Source: an uncultured Pelagibacteraceae bacterium (GTDB taxonomy: Bacteria; Pseudomonadota; Alphaproteobacteria; Pelagibacterales; Pelagibacteraceae). Taken from it: a stretch of DNA of 64,000 bases. Made by a program: the position numbers and the translations under genes. How positions within the stretch are numbered: position 1 is the first letter of the stretch; each line of letters starts with the position of its first letter. This document shows positions 2 to 13,936 of the stretch, one piece after another. Under the pieces are notes generated by a model, which saw nothing but the letters and a program-made list of their open reading frames with translations, was not told the origin of the DNA and made no database searches. Location of the stretch: contig CACEFF010000005.1 in assembly GCA_902558815.1 (NCBI GenBank), positions 1 through 64,000 of the forward strand, in the 5' to 3' direction.

Positions 2-451
2 ATACTATCAAATAATTTAGTAGAAAAATATTCAGTTTTTAAAATTTACCCGTCAAAACTTTATATTAAAATTGACAAAACAGAATTTTTAGCACGTTTA
101 AAAAGAAATGGTGAAGATTTTTTTTTAGGATCAAACGGTAAGTTAATAGAAATCAAAGAGCAACAAGATGGTTTGCCTTTTATATTTGGTAATTTTAAAA
201 AAGAAAATTTTTTTGAATTAAAGAGAGCAATTGATGAGACTAATTTCAATTATAGTAGAATTAAAGAATTATTTTTTTTTAAATTAGGGAGATGGGATAT
301 TAAAACTGATACAGGAATTATTATAAAACTACCAAAGTATAATTTGAAAAAATCTTTAGAATTGTCTATTAAGATATTACTTGAAGATGATAAAAAAAAA
401 ATAAACGAAATTGATTTACGTCAAAACAACCAGATAATAATAAATGGATAA
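2..451 (+). CDS. ftsQ: Cell division protein FtsQ, C-terminal part (truncated by window start)
   Basis: Open frame runs from base 2 through the listed 173..451 ORF (ILSNNLVEKYSVFKIYPSKLYIKI...LPFIFGNF...); POTRA/FtsQ-like sequence, directly upstream of an ftsA-like gene and lpxC. Confidence 0.8.
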   Translation: MLSNNLVEKYSVFKIYPSKLYIKIDKTEFLARLKRNGEDFFLGSNGKLIEIKEQQDGLPFIFGNFKKENFFELKRAIDETNFNYSRIKELFFFKLGRWDIKTDTGIIIKLPKYNLKKSLELSIKILLEDDKKKINEIDLRQNNQIIING

Positions 452-1145
452 TGATCTAAATTTTGAAACTTATCTATTTATAAGTGAAAACAAATTAATT
501 ATTTACGTTAATTCAGAAAGAAATATTCAACTTTACAAAAAAGAATTAATGATACCGAAAAATTCTTCGGAATCAATTTTAAATAAAGTAGATTATTTTT
601 TAAATGAGAATATTTTTAAGATTGAGAGAGTTTTAAAAGGTTTTGTTAAAAAAATGATTTTAATATTAGACTCTGAAGATTTTTTTTCTGTTGATATATC
701 GATAAAAAAAAAAAATTATGAAAATATTTTAAGTTTTAAAAGTTTAAATCACCTTTTATATGAATTAAAAGATTATTGTAAAGATAGCACTCAAGGCGCA
801 AAAATTATTCATATGGTCATACAAAATTATTTGATTAATGAAAAAAATTACACTTCTTTTCCAGAAAACACTAAATGTAACAGTTTAGCATTAGATGTAA
901 AATTTATTTGCATTTCAAATGATTTAATTAAAAATGTTGAAGTAATTTTGAAAAAATATCAAATTTCTCTAAAAAAAGTCGTGAATGCGAATTATATAAA
1001 TAATTTTTTAGATGAAGATGAGGATAATATATTTTTAATGAGTAAAAAAATAATCGTCGGTCATAACGCTAATGAAGTGTTATTGGTGGACAAAATCCCT
1101 AAAAATAGGGGATTTTTTGAAAAATTTTTCAGTTTTTTTAGTTAA
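444..1145 (+). CDS. ftsA: Shortened FtsA-like protein (233 aa): 1C/SHS2-like region and C-terminal amphipathic tail, no second ATPase lobe
   Basis: Segment GAKIIHMVIQNYLINEKNY...LDVKFICISNDLIKNVEVILKKYQISLKKVV matches the FtsA 1C region by eye (E. coli VLHVIPQEYAIDYQ...[29 protein letters not shown]); C-terminus GFFEKFFSFFS resembles the FtsA membrane-targeting helix; start overlaps ftsQ stop. Confidence 0.7.
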   Translation: MDNDLNFETYLFISENKLIIYVNSERNIQLYKKELMIPKNSSESILNKVDYFLNENIFKIERVLKGFVKKMILILDSEDFFSVDISIKKKNYENILSFKSLNHLLYELKDYCKDSTQGAKIIHMVIQNYLINEKNYTSFPENTKCNSLALDVKFICISNDLIKNVEVILKKYQISLKKVVNANYINNFLDEDEDNIFLMSKKIIVGHNANEVLLVDKIPKNRGFFEKFFSFFS

Positions 1146-1209: not shown

Positions 1210-2130
1210 GTGTCGGTATTAAATCAAAAAACTGTAAAAGCAAAAGTCCAATTTAGTGGAATTGGCCTACATAGTGGAAAATTAGTAAATATTTCAATTT
1301 TACCAGCAAATCCTAATTCAGGTATAATTTTTAAAAGAGTTGATTTGGCTAACAACAATATTGTTATACCAAGTTTTGAAAATGTTTGTAATACATCCTT
1401 AAATACCACAATATCAAATGAATTTGGAGCTAAAGTTTCAACAATCGAACATTTAATGGGAGCTTTATTTGGTCTTGGAATAGATAACGCCGTAGTTGAA
1501 GTCGACAATGAAGAAATTCCAATTCTTGATGGTTCTGCAAAAAACTTTATAGAAAAAATTGTTGCAGTAGGTTTTAAACTAAATGAATTGCCGATTAAGA
1601 TCATTAAGATTAATAAAAAAGTTGAATACAAAGATGGTGAAAGATCAATTTCAATTGAGCCATCAAAGCTCAGTTTAGATATTGAGTTTGAATTGAAATA
1701 CAAGAATAATTTAATTGGTAATCAAAAAAATAAAGTTAATGTTTATAAAGATGATCTTAAAGATATTTTTAATTCAAGAACTTTTTGTCTGTATGAGGAT
1801 ATTGAAGCTATAAAAAATAATGGTCTTGCAAAAGGTGGAAGCTTAGAAAATGCAATAGTAGTGAATGAAAATGAAATATTGAATGAAGGTGGACTGAGAA
1901 ATTCAAAAGAATTTGTTAATCACAAAATTCTAGATTGTATTGGTGACCTTTACACATGTGGATACAGATTGTTGGCTAACGTAAAATGTGCTCAAGGTGG
2001 GCACTATTTAACAAATCAGCTTTTAAGAAAAGTATTTGAAAATAAGGAAAATTTTTCTATTGTAGAGATTAGAGAGAAAAATTTACCTCATTCAGTAATA
2101 AACAAGACTTTACTAAGATCTATAGCATAA
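1210..2130 (+). CDS. lpxC: UDP-3-O-acyl-N-acetylglucosamine deacetylase
   Basis: GTG start; FSGIGLHSGKLVNI, STIEHLMGALFGLGIDNAVVEVDNEEIPILDGSA, HKILDCIGDLY motifs. Confidence 0.97.
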   Translation: MSVLNQKTVKAKVQFSGIGLHSGKLVNISILPANPNSGIIFKRVDLANNNIVIPSFENVCNTSLNTTISNEFGAKVSTIEHLMGALFGLGIDNAVVEVDNEEIPILDGSAKNFIEKIVAVGFKLNELPIKIIKINKKVEYKDGERSISIEPSKLSLDIEFELKYKNNLIGNQKNKVNVYKDDLKDIFNSRTFCLYEDIEAIKNNGLAKGGSLENAIVVNENEILNEGGLRNSKEFVNHKILDCIGDLYTCGYRLLANVKCAQGGHYLTNQLLRKVFENKENFSIVEIREKNLPHSVINKTLLRSIA

Positions 2131-2177: not shown

Positions 2178-3017
2178 ATGAATAAATTAAAGTTAATATT
2201 TTCAATTTTATTATTAATTTTTTTAAACAACTGTTCAAAAGAGACTAAAGATATTTCACTTATTAAAGAAACTAAACAAGACTTAGAAATGGTTGCAGCT
2301 TATAGAGAGGCATATAAAGCCATTGAGGAGGGTGATCCTTATTTTGCAGCCAGAAAATTTTTAGAGGCTGAACTTTTATTCCCCCAATCAATTTGGGCAC
2401 CAAGGTCAGCTTTGATGGCATCTTACTCTTTTTATCTTCAGAATTTTTTTTCAGAAGCATTAGCTAATCTTGAAAGATATTTAAAAACTTATCCAAAACA
2501 TGAAAACGTAGCCTATGCACATTATTTAATTGCAATGTGTTATTATGAAATGATTGAAGATGAAAAAAGAGATTCGGGTCCTTTAGTAAAGGCTAAGGAT
2601 AAATTTAATTTTATAATAAAAAATTATCCAAATACTGATTTCTCTTTAGACGCAAAATTTAAATTAGGATTGATTGAAGATATTTTAGCATCTAAGGAAA
2701 TGTATTTAGGTAGACATTATTTAAAGAAAAATAAATGGATTGCTGCTATTAATAGATTTAAGTATGTAATAGATAATTACGACCAAACAGTTTTTGTTGA
2801 AGAAGCTCTCCACAGATTAGTAGAAATAAACTATAAATTGGGTCTTTTAGAAGAGTCTCAAAAATTTGCAAGTTTATTAGGTTACAATTATCAATCAAGT
2901 AAATGGTATGAAAGATCTTATATAGTTTTTAATAAAGACTATAAAATAAAAAGAAAAAAAGAAATTAAAAAAGAAAAAAAAGGTGTAATTAAAAAATTTA
3001 AAGGTCTTTTTGATTAA
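2178..3017 (+). CDS. bamD: Outer membrane assembly lipoprotein BamD
   Basis: Lipobox-like FLNNCSK, TPR-like YfiO sequence (AYREAYKAIEEGDPYFAARKFLEAELLFPQS), position after lpxC. Confidence 0.9.
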   Translation: MNKLKLIFSILLLIFLNNCSKETKDISLIKETKQDLEMVAAYREAYKAIEEGDPYFAARKFLEAELLFPQSIWAPRSALMASYSFYLQNFFSEALANLERYLKTYPKHENVAYAHYLIAMCYYEMIEDEKRDSGPLVKAKDKFNFIIKNYPNTDFSLDAKFKLGLIEDILASKEMYLGRHYLKKNKWIAAINRFKYVIDNYDQTVFVEEALHRLVEINYKLGLLEESQKFASLLGYNYQSSKWYERSYIVFNKDYKIKRKKEIKKEKKGVIKKFKGLFD

Positions 3018-8787: not shown

Positions 8788-10281
8788 ATGTTTAATCTTA
8801 ACTTATTATTTAAAAAGCTAAAAAAACAATTTCTATCAATAAATGATTTAATAGAAAGCTATTTCGATAATTTTAGATCATTTATAATTACTCTTAAGAA
8901 AAATAAAATTAATAAGGATAATAAGGTAATTTTAGTTATAGGAACATTAATCATTTTGACACTGGGATATTTCTTGCTCCCCACAATTTATGATAGAAAT
9001 ATATTAGAATCGCAAATTAAAAATCAATTGTTAGAAAAATTTGATATTAAAATTCAATTTAAGGAAAAAATTTCTTATGGCTTGTTACCAAGGCCTCACT
9101 TTAATTCTAAAAATTTGACAATTTTAAAAGATGATGAAGAAATTGCAAAAATTAAAAATTTCAAAGTTTTTATTAATTTTGATAAATTTTTGTCTATTAA
9201 TAAAGTTAAAGTAAAAAATGTAGTATTTAGAAAAGCAGATTTTAACATTAATAAAGATGACTTTTCATTTTTCAAAAAGCTTTTATTTCTTGATAAAATA
9301 GATGATAAAATTAGTTTTCAGGAAAGTAATATTTTTTTTCTAAATAAAGATAAAAGTGAAATGTTATTTATTAATAAGATAAAAAGTAGTGATTATTTTT
9401 ATGATGAAAAAAAATTCGAAAATGTAATGTCTTCAAAAAATGAAATCTTTAATATTCCATATAAAGTTATATTTGAGAATAACCAAAAAAATAAAAATTT
9501 AGTTACTAAATTTAATTCCAGAAAAATTAGATTAAATGTTAAAAATGAGATTGATTATAGTGATAAAAATAATAATGGTATTTTAGATATCACATTTATA
9601 AATAAAAGTACCTCTATAGACTATAATATTGAAAAAGGTTTTATAGAATTTTCATCTGCAAATAAAAAAGATAATTATAAAGGTCAAATTGATTTTAAAC
9701 CTTTTTATCTAAAAGCAAGCTTTAATTATAACCAGTTAAACCCAAAGAATTTTGTTAATCATAATTCGGTTTTTTTTGAAATAATTAAATCCCAACTTTT
9801 AAATAACAAAAATTTAAATCTAGATATAGACTTGAATATAAATAAATTAACAAATATTAATCATTTGAATAATTTGATACTTAAAATAGGTATTCAAGAG
9901 GGTGATATAATTTTGTCAAATTCTAACTTAATGTGGAAAGAAGATTTAAAAATTTCCTTGAGAGAAACTTTTTTAAATTATGATGATAATGGAGTCAGAT
10001 TGATTGGAAAAATGAATTTAGATTATAAGGATATTAATAGCTTTTACAGATCTTTTCAGGTGAACAAAAAAGATAGAAAAGATATTAAACAAATTGAAAT
10101 GGATTTTGTTTACGGCTTAACATCAAAAAACGTTAGTTTTGATAATGTTAAAATTGATAATTCATCTAATAAAAATTTAGAAAAGTTCATAAATAAATTT
10201 AATTCAAAAAATTCAAAACTGAATAATAAAGTAGTTTTCAAAAATTTTATCAGTAATTTTTTTAATGCTTACGATGGATAA
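8788..10281 (+). CDS. Membrane-anchored AsmA-like protein
   Basis: Single N-terminal TM segment (VILVIGTLIILTLGYFLLP) then FDIKIQFKEKISYGLLPRPHFNSKNLTI, typical of AsmA N-termini; long beta-rich remainder. Confidence 0.55.
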   Translation: MFNLNLLFKKLKKQFLSINDLIESYFDNFRSFIITLKKNKINKDNKVILVIGTLIILTLGYFLLPTIYDRNILESQIKNQLLEKFDIKIQFKEKISYGLLPRPHFNSKNLTILKDDEEIAKIKNFKVFINFDKFLSINKVKVKNVVFRKADFNINKDDFSFFKKLLFLDKIDDKISFQESNIFFLNKDKSEMLFINKIKSSDYFYDEKKFENVMSSKNEIFNIPYKVIFENNQKNKNLVTKFNSRKIRLNVKNEIDYSDKNNNGILDITFINKSTSIDYNIEKGFIEFSSANKKDNYKGQIDFKPFYLKASFNYNQLNPKNFVNHNSVFFEIIKSQLLNNKNLNLDIDLNINKLTNINHLNNLILKIGIQEGDIILSNSNLMWKEDLKISLRETFLNYDDNGVRLIGKMNLDYKDINSFYRSFQVNKKDRKDIKQIEMDFVYGLTSKNVSFDNVKIDNSSNKNLEKFINKFNSKNSKLNNKVVFKNFISNFFNAYDG

Positions 10282-11657
10282 ATCATTTTTTTTGGGTCTA
10301 CGATTTTTTTATAATCTTTTTCACTAATTAAACCTGATTTTAAAGCTTCTTCCTTAAGAGTAGTTTTATTTCTTAACGCTGCTTTAGCAATTTTTGCAGA
10401 ATTGTCGTAACCAATATGTGGAGCCAAAGCAGTTACCAACATTAATGAATTATCCAAATACTCTTTTATTTTATTTTTATCTGCTTTAACTCCTTTAATA
10501 CAATAAAGTGAAAAATTTTTAGTACTGTCGGCTAGTAAATCTATGGACTGTAAAACATTATGTGCAATTAAAGGTTTGAAAACATTTAATTCAAAATGTC
10601 CATGAGAACCTGCCATTGTAATTCCATTATGATTCCCAATGACTTTAACACATACCATTGTTACTGCCTCTGATTGAGTGGGATTTACTTTGCCAGGCAT
10701 AATAGATGATCCAGGTTCATTAGAAGGTAAAATAATTTCACCATATCCTGCTCTTGGACCAGATCCGAGAAATCTAACATCATTTGCAATCTTCATTAAA
10801 CAAACTGCCGTTGTATTTAATGTGCCTGAAAAGTTTACTATTTCATCATGAGCAGCTAATGCTGCAAATTTATTTTTAGCTGGTTTAAACGGTAATTTAG
10901 TAATCTTTTTAATTTCAGTTATAATTTTTTTATCAAAACCTTTTTTACTATTTATTCCAGTTCCTACAGCTGTTCCACCTTGTGCTAAATAATAGATTTC
11001 ATTTAATGCATTTTTAATTCTAAAAATACAATTTTCTAATTGTGATTGATAACCTGAAAATTCCTGACCCAAAGAAAGAGGAGTCGCATCTTGAAGATGC
11101 GTCCTTCCTACTTTAACTATATTTCTAAATTGAGAAATTTTTTTTTTTAATTCTTTATTTAATAGTTCAAGCGAAGGTAATAATTTATTTTTGGTTTCAA
11201 TAGCTATCGCAATATGCATTGCAGTCGGAAATACATCATTTGTAGATTGAGATTTATTTACATGATCGTTTGGATGAACTGGCTTTTTAGTACCTTTTTT
11301 TCCTCCTAAAATTTCAATCGCCCTATTAGCAATTACCTCGTTAACATTCATATTTGTTTGAGTACCGGAACCTGTTTGCCAAACTTTTAATGGAAAGTGA
11401 TCATCTAGTTTACCAGATATTACTTCATTGGAGGCTTTAATAATTGCATTAGATATTTTGGGTAAAATTTGTTTTTCTTTACCATGAACTTTAGCTGCAG
11501 CTTTTTTAATTATTGCGATAGATCTAATTAAAATTGGTCTTACTAAAAATTCACCTATATCAAAATACTTTTTAGATCTTTGTGTTGAAGCACCCCAATA
11601 TTTATCTTTTGGGACATTAATGGATCCAATACTATCAAATTCTTTTCTTAATTTCAT
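10269..11657 (-). CDS. fumC: Fumarate hydratase class II
   Basis: GSIMPGKVNPTQSEA signature, KVWQTGSGTQTNMNVNEVIANRA, GRTHLQDATPLSLGQEFSGY. Confidence 0.97.
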   Translation of the reverse strand: MKLRKEFDSIGSINVPKDKYWGASTQRSKKYFDIGEFLVRPILIRSIAIIKKAAAKVHGKEKQILPKISNAIIKASNEVISGKLDDHFPLKVWQTGSGTQTNMNVNEVIANRAIEILGGKKGTKKPVHPNDHVNKSQSTNDVFPTAMHIAIAIETKNKLLPSLELLNKELKKKISQFRNIVKVGRTHLQDATPLSLGQEFSGYQSQLENCIFRIKNALNEIYYLAQGGTAVGTGINSKKGFDKKIITEIKKITKLPFKPAKNKFAALAAHDEIVNFSGTLNTTAVCLMKIANDVRFLGSGPRAGYGEIILPSNEPGSSIMPGKVNPTQSEAVTMVCVKVIGNHNGITMAGSHGHFELNVFKPLIAHNVLQSIDLLADSTKNFSLYCIKGVKADKNKIKEYLDNSLMLVTALAPHIGYDNSAKIAKAALRNKTTLKEEALKSGLISEKDYKKIVDPKKMIYPS

Positions 11658-11723
11658 TGATTAATAACTAATTAATAAATTATTATTAATATACATTAAA
11701 TTTATAAAACTTACAGGAGCAAT

Positions 11724-12095
11724 ATGTCAAATTTTAGTAAGGTCGGAATTTTTATGAAAAATTTTGGTCAAGAAGTTAAAAATAAACCTTCTTTTAGTAC
11801 TGATAAAATCAACAAACTAAGAATTGATCTCATAAAGGAGGAATTAGAGGAGTTAACAGAAGCAATGAATAATAAAAATTTATTAGAGGTTGCAGATGCA
11901 TTAACTGATATCTTATATGTTACTTATGGCGCTGGTCATGCATTTGGTATTGATTTAGACAAGTGTTTCGAAGAAGTCCAGAATTCAAACATGAGCAAAT
12001 TAGATGTAAATGGAAAACCAATCTATAATGAGTCTGGTAAAGTAATGAAAGGACCTAAATATTTCAAACCTGACCTCTCAAAATTTGTTAATTAG
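11724..12095 (+). CDS. MazG-like / phosphoribosyl-ATP pyrophosphohydrolase-like NTP-PPase
   Basis: IKEELEELTEAMNNKNLLEVADALTDILYVTYGAGHAFGID matches the MazG/HisE-like EExxE...ExxD helix pattern. Confidence 0.8.
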   Translation: MSNFSKVGIFMKNFGQEVKNKPSFSTDKINKLRIDLIKEELEELTEAMNNKNLLEVADALTDILYVTYGAGHAFGIDLDKCFEEVQNSNMSKLDVNGKPIYNESGKVMKGPKYFKPDLSKFVN

Positions 12096-12925
12096 ATTTC
12101 AAGTTTCAGGTCTACTGCTGGAGCACTATGAGTAATACTTCCAACAGAAACTCTATCCACACCAGTTGCCGCAATTAATTTAATTTTTTTAAGAGTAATA
12201 TTTCCTGATGCTTCGGTTTCATAGAATTTTTTAACTAACTTAACCCCAGTTTTAAGATTTCTAATGCTCATATTGTCAAACAATATAGTATTGAATTTAA
12301 GGCCAATTATTTTTTTTACTTGTCTTAAATTATCAACTTCTACAGTTATTTTTCTTCCTTTTTTATTTTTGATAGCTGAAGAAACAAGACTTTTAATATC
12401 TGATGAGCCAATATGATTATCTTTAATTAAATATTCATCACTTAAATTGAATCTATGATTTGTACCTCCACCTAATTTAACGGCATATTTTTGAATCACT
12501 CTTAAGTTTGGAATTGTTTTACGTGTACAACAAATTTTACATTTTTTACCAGCCAATTTTACAAACTGGTTAGTTTTAGTTGCTATTCCAGAAATATGAG
12601 AAAGAAAATTTAAAGCCACTCTTTCAGCTATAAGTATGTTTTTTGCTTTGCCTTCAATTGTTGCTATTAAAGATCCTTTCTTTACTTTTGAACCATCTTT
12701 CTTTTTAACAATAAATTTAATTTTATTATCAATTAATTTAAAAGTATGTTTTGCAAATAATAAACCACCAATAATAGCCTCTTGATTTGAAATTAATTTG
12801 ATTTTTATAACTTTTTTATTTTGTACTAAATTTGAAGTTATATCTCCAGATGGGTAGAGATCTTCATTTAGAGCAAGCTTAACAATATTTTTGATAAAAT
12901 TTTCACTTAGTTTAATTTTTGACAC
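12092..12925 (-). CDS. nadC: Nicotinate-nucleotide pyrophosphorylase
   Basis: NEDLYPSGDITSNLV, ERVALNFLSHISGIAT, TRKTIPNLRVIQKYAVKLGGGTNHRFNLSDEYLIKDNHI. Confidence 0.97.
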   Translation of the reverse strand: MSKIKLSENFIKNIVKLALNEDLYPSGDITSNLVQNKKVIKIKLISNQEAIIGGLLFAKHTFKLIDNKIKFIVKKKDGSKVKKGSLIATIEGKAKNILIAERVALNFLSHISGIATKTNQFVKLAGKKCKICCTRKTIPNLRVIQKYAVKLGGGTNHRFNLSDEYLIKDNHIGSSDIKSLVSSAIKNKKGRKITVEVDNLRQVKKIIGLKFNTILFDNMSIRNLKTGVKLVKKFYETEASGNITLKKIKLIAATGVDRVSVGSITHSAPAVDLKLEI

Positions 12926-12931
12926 AAAAGA

Positions 12932-13936
12932 TTATCTACCGATAGCAACCATTTTTTCAACTGATAATCTAGCTTTATTTATCGTATCCTTGTCCATTAC
13001 AATTTCACCAGTTTCATTTTCTAAACAGTCTAGGATTTTTGGCAAAGTTATTCTTTTCATATGTGGGCAGAGATTGCACGGTCTAATAAATTCTACATTT
13101 GGATTTTCTACTTGAATATTATCACTCATTGAACATTCTGTAACCATCATAACTTTTTTTGGTTGATTGTCTTTTACATAATTAATCATTCCTGAAGTTG
13201 AACCAGCAAAATCACTTGCTTTGATAACTTCAGGTGGACATTCTGGATGAGCTATAATTTTAATTCCTGGATTTTTTTTTCTAATATCATTAATTTCTTT
13301 TTCATCAAATTGATCATGAACCATACAAATCCCTTTCCATGAAATAATCTCTACATCTGTTTGAGAAGCAACATATTTTGCCAAATAATCATCAGGTAAA
13401 AAAATTACCTTTTTAACTCCTAATGATTTTACAATTTTTACCGCATTTGCAGAAGTACAACATATATCAGTTTCTGCCTTCACATCTGCCGATGTATTCA
13501 CATATGAAACTACAGGAACTCCTGGGTACTTTTCTTTTAAAAGTTTTACATCTTTACCTGTAATTGATGATGATAAAGAACAACCTGCTTTCATATCTGG
13601 TAGTAAAACTTTTTTATTAGGGCTCATTAGTTTTGCTGTCTCAGCCATGAAATGAACACCAGCCATCACAATTATGTCTGCTGAGGTTTTTGATGCTTCA
13701 ACTGCAAGAGCTAATGAGTCTGCAGAAAAATCTGCTATACCATGATAAATTTCTGGTGTTTGATAGTTATGAGCTAGAATAACTGCATTTTTCTCTTTTT
13801 TTAATTTATTAATTTTATGTATGTAAGGAGCATGTATTGACCACTCAATCTCAGGCATAACCTTTGATATCTTTTGATAAATTGGATCAGTAGCTTTTTT
13901 AACCTCTTGATTAAATTCCATATGAAAATTTATCAA
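12932..13936 (-). CDS. nadA: Quinolinate synthase A
   Basis: AVILAHNYQTPEIYHGIADFSADSLALA, conserved cysteines in AGCSLS, HPECPPEV, CNLCPHMKRITL. Confidence 0.97.
   Translation of the reverse strand: MINFHMEFNQEVKKATDPIYQKISKVMPEIEWSIHAPYIHKINKLKKEKNAVILAHNYQTPEIYHGIADFSADSLALAVEASKTSADIIVMAGVHFMAETAKLMSPNKKVLLPDMKAGCSLSSSITGKDVKLLKEKYPGVPVVSYVNTSADVKAETDICCTSANAVKIVKSLGVKKVIFLPDDYLAKYVASQTDVEIISWKGICMVHDQFDEKEINDIRKKNPGIKIIAHPECPPEVIKASDFAGSTSGMINYVKDNQPKKVMMVTECSMSDNIQVENPNVEFIRPCNLCPHMKRITLPKILDCLENETGEIVMDKDTINKARLSVEKMVAIGR

Follow-up and report, generated by a model that had tools for sequence, protein, structure and literature searches.

The window, by which we mean the whole 64,000-nucleotide stretch analysed here, forms the start of contig C5 in a 1.1-Mb draft genome (G000; 88% complete, 25 contigs). 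Reading inwards from the contig end, we see the gene order ftsQ, mini-ftsA, lpxC, bamD, ligA, with the ATG start of mini-ftsA overlapping the ftsQ stop by 8 nt (ORF coordinates). The 233-residue reading frame is present as first described and occupies the ftsQ–lpxC slot that, in relatives, holds a full-length FtsA. The features discussed below, all on the forward (+) strand, are:

2–451 (+): C-terminal part of ftsQ, its 5' end lying beyond the window (PF03799 FtsQ_DivIB_C, E 2.5e-8)
444–1145 (+): mini-ftsA coding sequence, 233 amino acids; FtsA lobe I (subdomains IA and IC) plus membrane helix, without lobe II
444–671 (+): first part of IA, residues 1–76, boundary approximate (AlphaFold2 pLDDT mostly >85; alignment)
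480–497 (+): former phosphate-1 turn, ISENKL as against IDFGSSKIR in full-length relatives; ATP motif lost (column counts)
672–917 (+): IC (SHS2-like), residues 77–158, boundaries approximate (TIGR01174, PDB profile, model)
918–1007 (+): second part of IA, residues 159–188 (alignments)
1008–1028 (+): junction at which ~150 residues of lobe II (IIA and IIB, with the phosphate-2 and adenosine motifs) are missing (profile, alignment)
1029–1055 (+): C-terminal helix of IA, residues 196–204 (alignment, model, profile positions 345–391)
1110–1142 (+): predicted amphipathic membrane-targeting helix, GFFEKFFSFFS (sequence pattern, conservation)
1210–2130 (+): lpxC, the conserved 3' neighbour that marks the slot (PF03331, E 4.3e-93)
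2178–3017 (+): bamD, a conserved neighbour (PF13525 YfiO, E 4e-50)

FtsA is usually viewed as a two-lobed, ATP-binding actin, the polymer state of which controls septum building and subdomain IIB of which ties FtsZ to the membrane. Taken as a single sequence, the 233-residue protein resembles this family weakly: residues 115–195 match the NCBIfam ftsA model TIGR01174 at E 5e-5 (22.5 bits, against a curated cut-off of 175.85), and Pfam SHS2_FTSA is reached at E 0.07 only; a match to DUF3612, as weak as that to SHS2_FTSA, we judge to be chance, and neither Pfam nor NCBIfam yields a match to PilM. At the profile level the relationship becomes clear. In our alignment of 68 mini homologues (A1), which forms the basis of the profile and structure work, 49 sequences match TIGR01174 (best E 1.9e-13), and the A1 profile retrieves from the PDB E. 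coli FtsA 7q6d (E 8.7e-5) along with 7q6g, 7q6f and, weakly, 1e4f—and no chains other than those of FtsA. Compared by hhalign with 37 full-length relatives, the mini profile aligns over lobe I with a probability of 100% (E 3e-40), at ~24% identity to full-length FtsA of the same genus. Profile searching thus bears out the FtsA similarity that the preliminary description had noted by eye; by descent and by its ftsQ-linked position, the gene is an ftsA orthologue. As the curated models score it so far below their cut-offs, automatic annotation probably leaves the gene unnamed, and genomes bearing it may seem to lack ftsA.

The ftsQ-X-lpxC slot, located by means of lpxC, was taken from ~140 genomes and is shared by about 110 congeners. 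The length of X is bimodal: 67 distinct sequences fall at 220–246 amino acids and 49 at 368–402, with 44 of these full-length forms lying in the same Pelagibacterales genus as the minis and five in another family (f2). An assembly or sequencing artefact might be suspected from the position of the window, at a contig start in a draft genome that is 88% complete; it is scarcely credible, however, since homologues built alike occur in over 60 independent genomes, the single-contig G440 and G082 among them. Nor do we see a mutation local to this genome, since the truncation is conserved, though some congeners have full-length FtsA at the locus. Outside the genus, no short FtsA could be established among the class-wide matches listed, which include a few frames of 204–345 amino acids, several of them near contig starts.

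A gene that diverges as fast as mini-ftsA, and that is frameshifted in two lineages (L157, at a homopolymer, and L115), could in principle be a functionless, decaying relic of ftsA. We think this very improbable: frame, length (220–246 amino acids) and membrane helix are intact in 67 distinct sequences, the predicted fold is a confident one, Y184 (across 68 minis), F225 and F229 are invariant, and dN/dS is 0.13–0.31 in ten close mini pairs, as compared with 0.13–0.27 in full-length pairs. The truncation is conserved, its frame intact, under purifying selection in dozens of species. The two frameshifted copies belong to sister lineages, and that of L157 (G012:C1, a complete genome) is broken at a T7A8 run, whether by sequencing error, slippage or real decay. 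Separately, the full-length ftsA of L222 (G010:C2) is interrupted by a single in-frame TAA, placed exactly at the boundary of lobes I and II (...NYCNQF, stop, KKKILFFLDIG...).

In our AlphaFold2 model, built on A1 (mean pLDDT 87, pTM 0.81), IA and IC, with their strands and helices in place, form a compact lobe, followed by the C-terminal IA helix (196–204) and the membrane helix (224–232). The first part of IA consists of three strands, a helix (45–64) and a further strand (70–75); the second ends at the Y184 motif, which in full-length FtsA precedes lobe II; and helix 196–204 is homologous to the last helix of the full-length relatives (ICESGLK...). The '1C-like domain' and tail originally proposed are both there, but a bare IC domain is too modest a description, since IA is kept whole as well, in its two N-terminal parts and its C-terminal helix alike. 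Foldseek searches of the PDB with this model return 19 FtsA chains (best 1e4g, E 7e-13; FtsN-bound 7q6i_B, E 1e-12, TM-score 0.65 over the query) ahead of any PilM chain, with GspL/EpsL following PilM; a closer affinity to PilM than to FtsA was considered and rejected on this ranking. The full-length relative L192 (378 amino acids) models as a two-lobed FtsA (pLDDT 85; Foldseek match to 1e4g, E 1e-20).

When the whole of the window's own genome is searched with a profile of the full-length relatives (392 positions; E up to 1), the locus is matched in two blocks: positions 13–183 with window 483–1001, and positions 345–391 with window 1002–1142. The intervening positions 184–344, corresponding to lobe II, are matched nowhere in this 88%-complete genome; the earlier reading of a missing lobe 2 stands. 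In the alignment, the end of IA (...SxYxxS...) reaches the last helix (...ICxxGxxL...) within about seven residues. Removal of lobe II is precise: IIA and IIB have been excised and the chain returns to the C-terminal helix of IA. A split gene, with lobe II encoded elsewhere, was looked for and rejected, both in the window's own genome and in three others, namely the mini-bearing G440 and G082 (single-contig, 99% complete) and G012, the mini gene of which is frameshifted. Actin-like matches to TIGR01174 in the same genomes (~positions 160–346, from frames of 343–384 amino acids) look like MreB and not a second FtsA.

With lobe II go the phosphate-2 and adenosine columns, in which no mini has a residue and the full-length proteins are conserved (DIG and GxGS, respectively). 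The third nucleotide motif has been lost within the part that remains; the phosphate-1 glycine is found in 43 of 43 full-length sequences (those of the genus, with the divergent L232 left out) as against 4 of 67 minis, in keeping with the altered strand already remarked upon in the preliminary description. The FtsZ peptide site in FtsA lies in IIB, as seen in the Thermotoga complex 4a2a. Features that would define FtsA as an actin-like ATPase—lobe II, the three ATP motifs and the IIB site for the FtsZ peptide—are absent: the mini protein is unable to form the FtsA nucleotide pocket, and has lost docking at IIB along with the surfaces of IIA/IIB used longitudinally. The lateral surface of IC is still there. 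Because all three nucleotide motifs are lost, it is probably ATP-independent, as had been proposed.

The C-terminal GFFEKFFSFFS segment is conserved and, as previously suggested, amphipathic (hydrophobic moment 0.66, shuffle p 0.02); phenylalanine occupies positions -5 and -9 in 67 of 67 minis, and the helix is common to mini and full-length forms. Pattern and conservation together point to a membrane-targeting role.

The sister genus of the same family carries a 407-residue FtsA in the slot (G342, a complete genome) with canonical motifs (LDLGSYKIK, DFGFDKTS and TGGGS); full length is therefore ancestral. We compared this with a tree built from ten dcw-cluster proteins, concatenated; the window's own genome is absent from it, as its contig begins within ftsQ. 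There, short and full-length forms are intermingled, requiring at least five changes, or 11 if losses only are allowed. The tree of lobe I itself shows far less interleaving (two changes); in it, a single mini clade is not rejected (p-AU 0.73), and grouping the full-length proteins of L173, L176 and L187 with the window's group, as in the dcw tree, is rejected (p-AU 0.005). In the dcw tree, the full-length ftsA of these three lineages lies inside a clade whose other members carry minis; the rejection of vertical descent with the window's group suggests that there a short allele was laterally replaced by a long one. More generally, exchange of ftsA alleles between lineages would best explain the discord between the trees; repeated loss of lobe II with convergent evolution of lobe I may be an alternative. 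In family f2, the full-length FtsA proteins of L236, L238 and L241 have an altered phosphate-1 (AIDIRADK, ALQIDHNS) and phosphate-2 (DIQKNKT), so that there, too, nucleotide binding may have started to be lost without any truncation.

Among the expected partners, FtsZ is present in the window's own genome (G000:C1). Its C-terminal peptide, LEIPAFLRRQKN, is kept in every mini genome examined and is identical in nearly all of those with full-length FtsA; a test for co-variation of the peptide with FtsA type finds no difference between mini and full-length genomes. In the dcw cluster (L140 and related loci), ftsZ sits at the upstream end, ~15 kb before ftsA, and not directly 3' of it; the same L140 locus (10211–13051, - strand) contains a 947-residue reading frame in which the middle and C-terminal domains of Mur ligases each occur twice, an apparent MurE-MurF fusion. 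ZapA was found in 10 of 10 genomes, and ZipA and SepF in none of the ten searched. FtsN was not found, the sole SPOR-domain protein detected being an RlpA-like lipoprotein (L255, L256, L258, L259) encoded between mltB-like and dacA-like genes. A search for FtsE matched every ABC ATPase, none of them above cut-off.

In E. coli and Vibrio FtsA, the FtsN tail occupies the cleft between IA and IC, and IC makes the lateral contacts of a double filament, with IIA and IIB involved in the longitudinal ones (PMC7613929). FtsA binds the conserved FtsZ tail, and E. coli FtsA mutants with reduced self-interaction often display enhanced activity (PMC5832921). Set against these data, the reading we favour, and consider reasonably probable, is that a lobe-I-only FtsA serves as a nucleotide-free, non-polymerising, membrane-anchored adaptor of the divisome. 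Such a protein would work at the membrane with no need of nucleotide and would not polymerise longitudinally as actins do; it would recruit or activate later division proteins through the IA–IC cleft and/or pair by IC–IC contacts, and would be, in effect, an active FtsA that is permanently non-polymerised. FtsZ would then have to be linked to the membrane, or to mini-FtsA, through some contact outside the canonical IIB site. That less self-interacting FtsA mutants are often more active (PMC5832921) makes a non-filamentous adaptor plausible.

Two observations sit less comfortably with an adaptor: the failure to find FtsN, its presumed partner in the IA–IC cleft, and the conservation of the FtsZ C-terminal peptide, which could mean that the mini protein binds FtsZ at a new site. 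The latter leads to the main rival, in which mini-FtsA is a minimal membrane tether for FtsZ, again without filaments, and the peptide docks on lobe I at a remodelled surface, such as the one laid bare when lobe II was lost. Retention of LEIPAFLRRQKN, the strongly conserved membrane helix and the need for another tether where ZipA and SepF are not found all speak for such an arrangement; we nonetheless hold it to be unlikely, as the structurally known peptide site is absent, the peptide has many other binders, and it does not differ between mini and full-length genomes. An adaptor is favoured over a tether because IIB, the known FtsZ-docking subdomain, is missing; 'adaptor' is thus the better supported term and our best inference, with its partners being putative. 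Alternatively, lobe I could have been co-opted for work unrelated to the recruitment of late divisome proteins, such as stabilising FtsQ or regulating the adjacent envelope operon; the ftsQ overlap and adjacent lpxC make coupled expression probable, and FtsN is again missing from the picture. This we regard as improbable, in that the slot holds full-length FtsA in congeners and both the membrane helix and IC conservation are retained.

On the most far-reaching interpretation, much of this species-rich Pelagibacterales genus would divide without any actin-like FtsA filament, without control of FtsA by ATP and without the canonical link between FtsA and the FtsZ tail, a lobe-I-only adaptor doing the essential work of FtsA and short and full-length alleles being swapped between lineages; we put this broader picture forward tentatively, as a good possibility that falls a little short of an even chance. 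A natural, conserved FtsA without its ATPase lobe separates the polymer/ATP role from that of tying FtsZ, and suggests that IA and IC with a membrane helix can suffice in a streamlined cell. That many species of an abundant marine group have a half-size FtsA challenges the need for FtsA as an ATP-dependent filament, prompts the question of which protein binds the conserved FtsZ tail in such cells, and offers a small model for what the IC region really does. Among the papers searched, we found none on such a protein.

Compared with the FtsA proteins of E. coli, Vibrio and Thermotoga (7q6d, 7q6i, 1e4f/4a2a), mini-FtsA has the same order of IA and IC, the same C-terminal amphipathic helix and the same position after ftsQ, but lacks IIA and IIB, the phosphate-1, phosphate-2 and adenosine motifs, the known FtsZ-peptide site and the IIA/IIB longitudinal contact. 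It shares both slot and GFFEKFF-type tail with the full-length FtsA of its own genus (368–402 amino acids) and sister genus (407), which, unlike it, keep lobe II with DIG (phosphate-2) and GxGS (adenosine) as well as the phosphate-1 motif. PilM (5eou, 2ych) likewise has an FtsA-like fold with an IC-type subdomain, and its IA–IC cleft takes the PilN tail (PMC7613929), but it is complete, with both lobes and ATP binding, and belongs to type IV pili. The cytoplasmic domain of GspL/EpsL (1w97, 4pht; Foldseek E 5e-6 to 1e-5) offers another actin-like-derived, membrane-linked assembly adaptor, albeit one from type II secretion that forms part of a membrane-spanning protein and superposes with a low TM-score of 0.39. 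We class mini-FtsA as an FtsA-derived lobe-I adaptor: ftsA by descent and position, yet no FtsA if that name is reserved for an actin-like ATPase.
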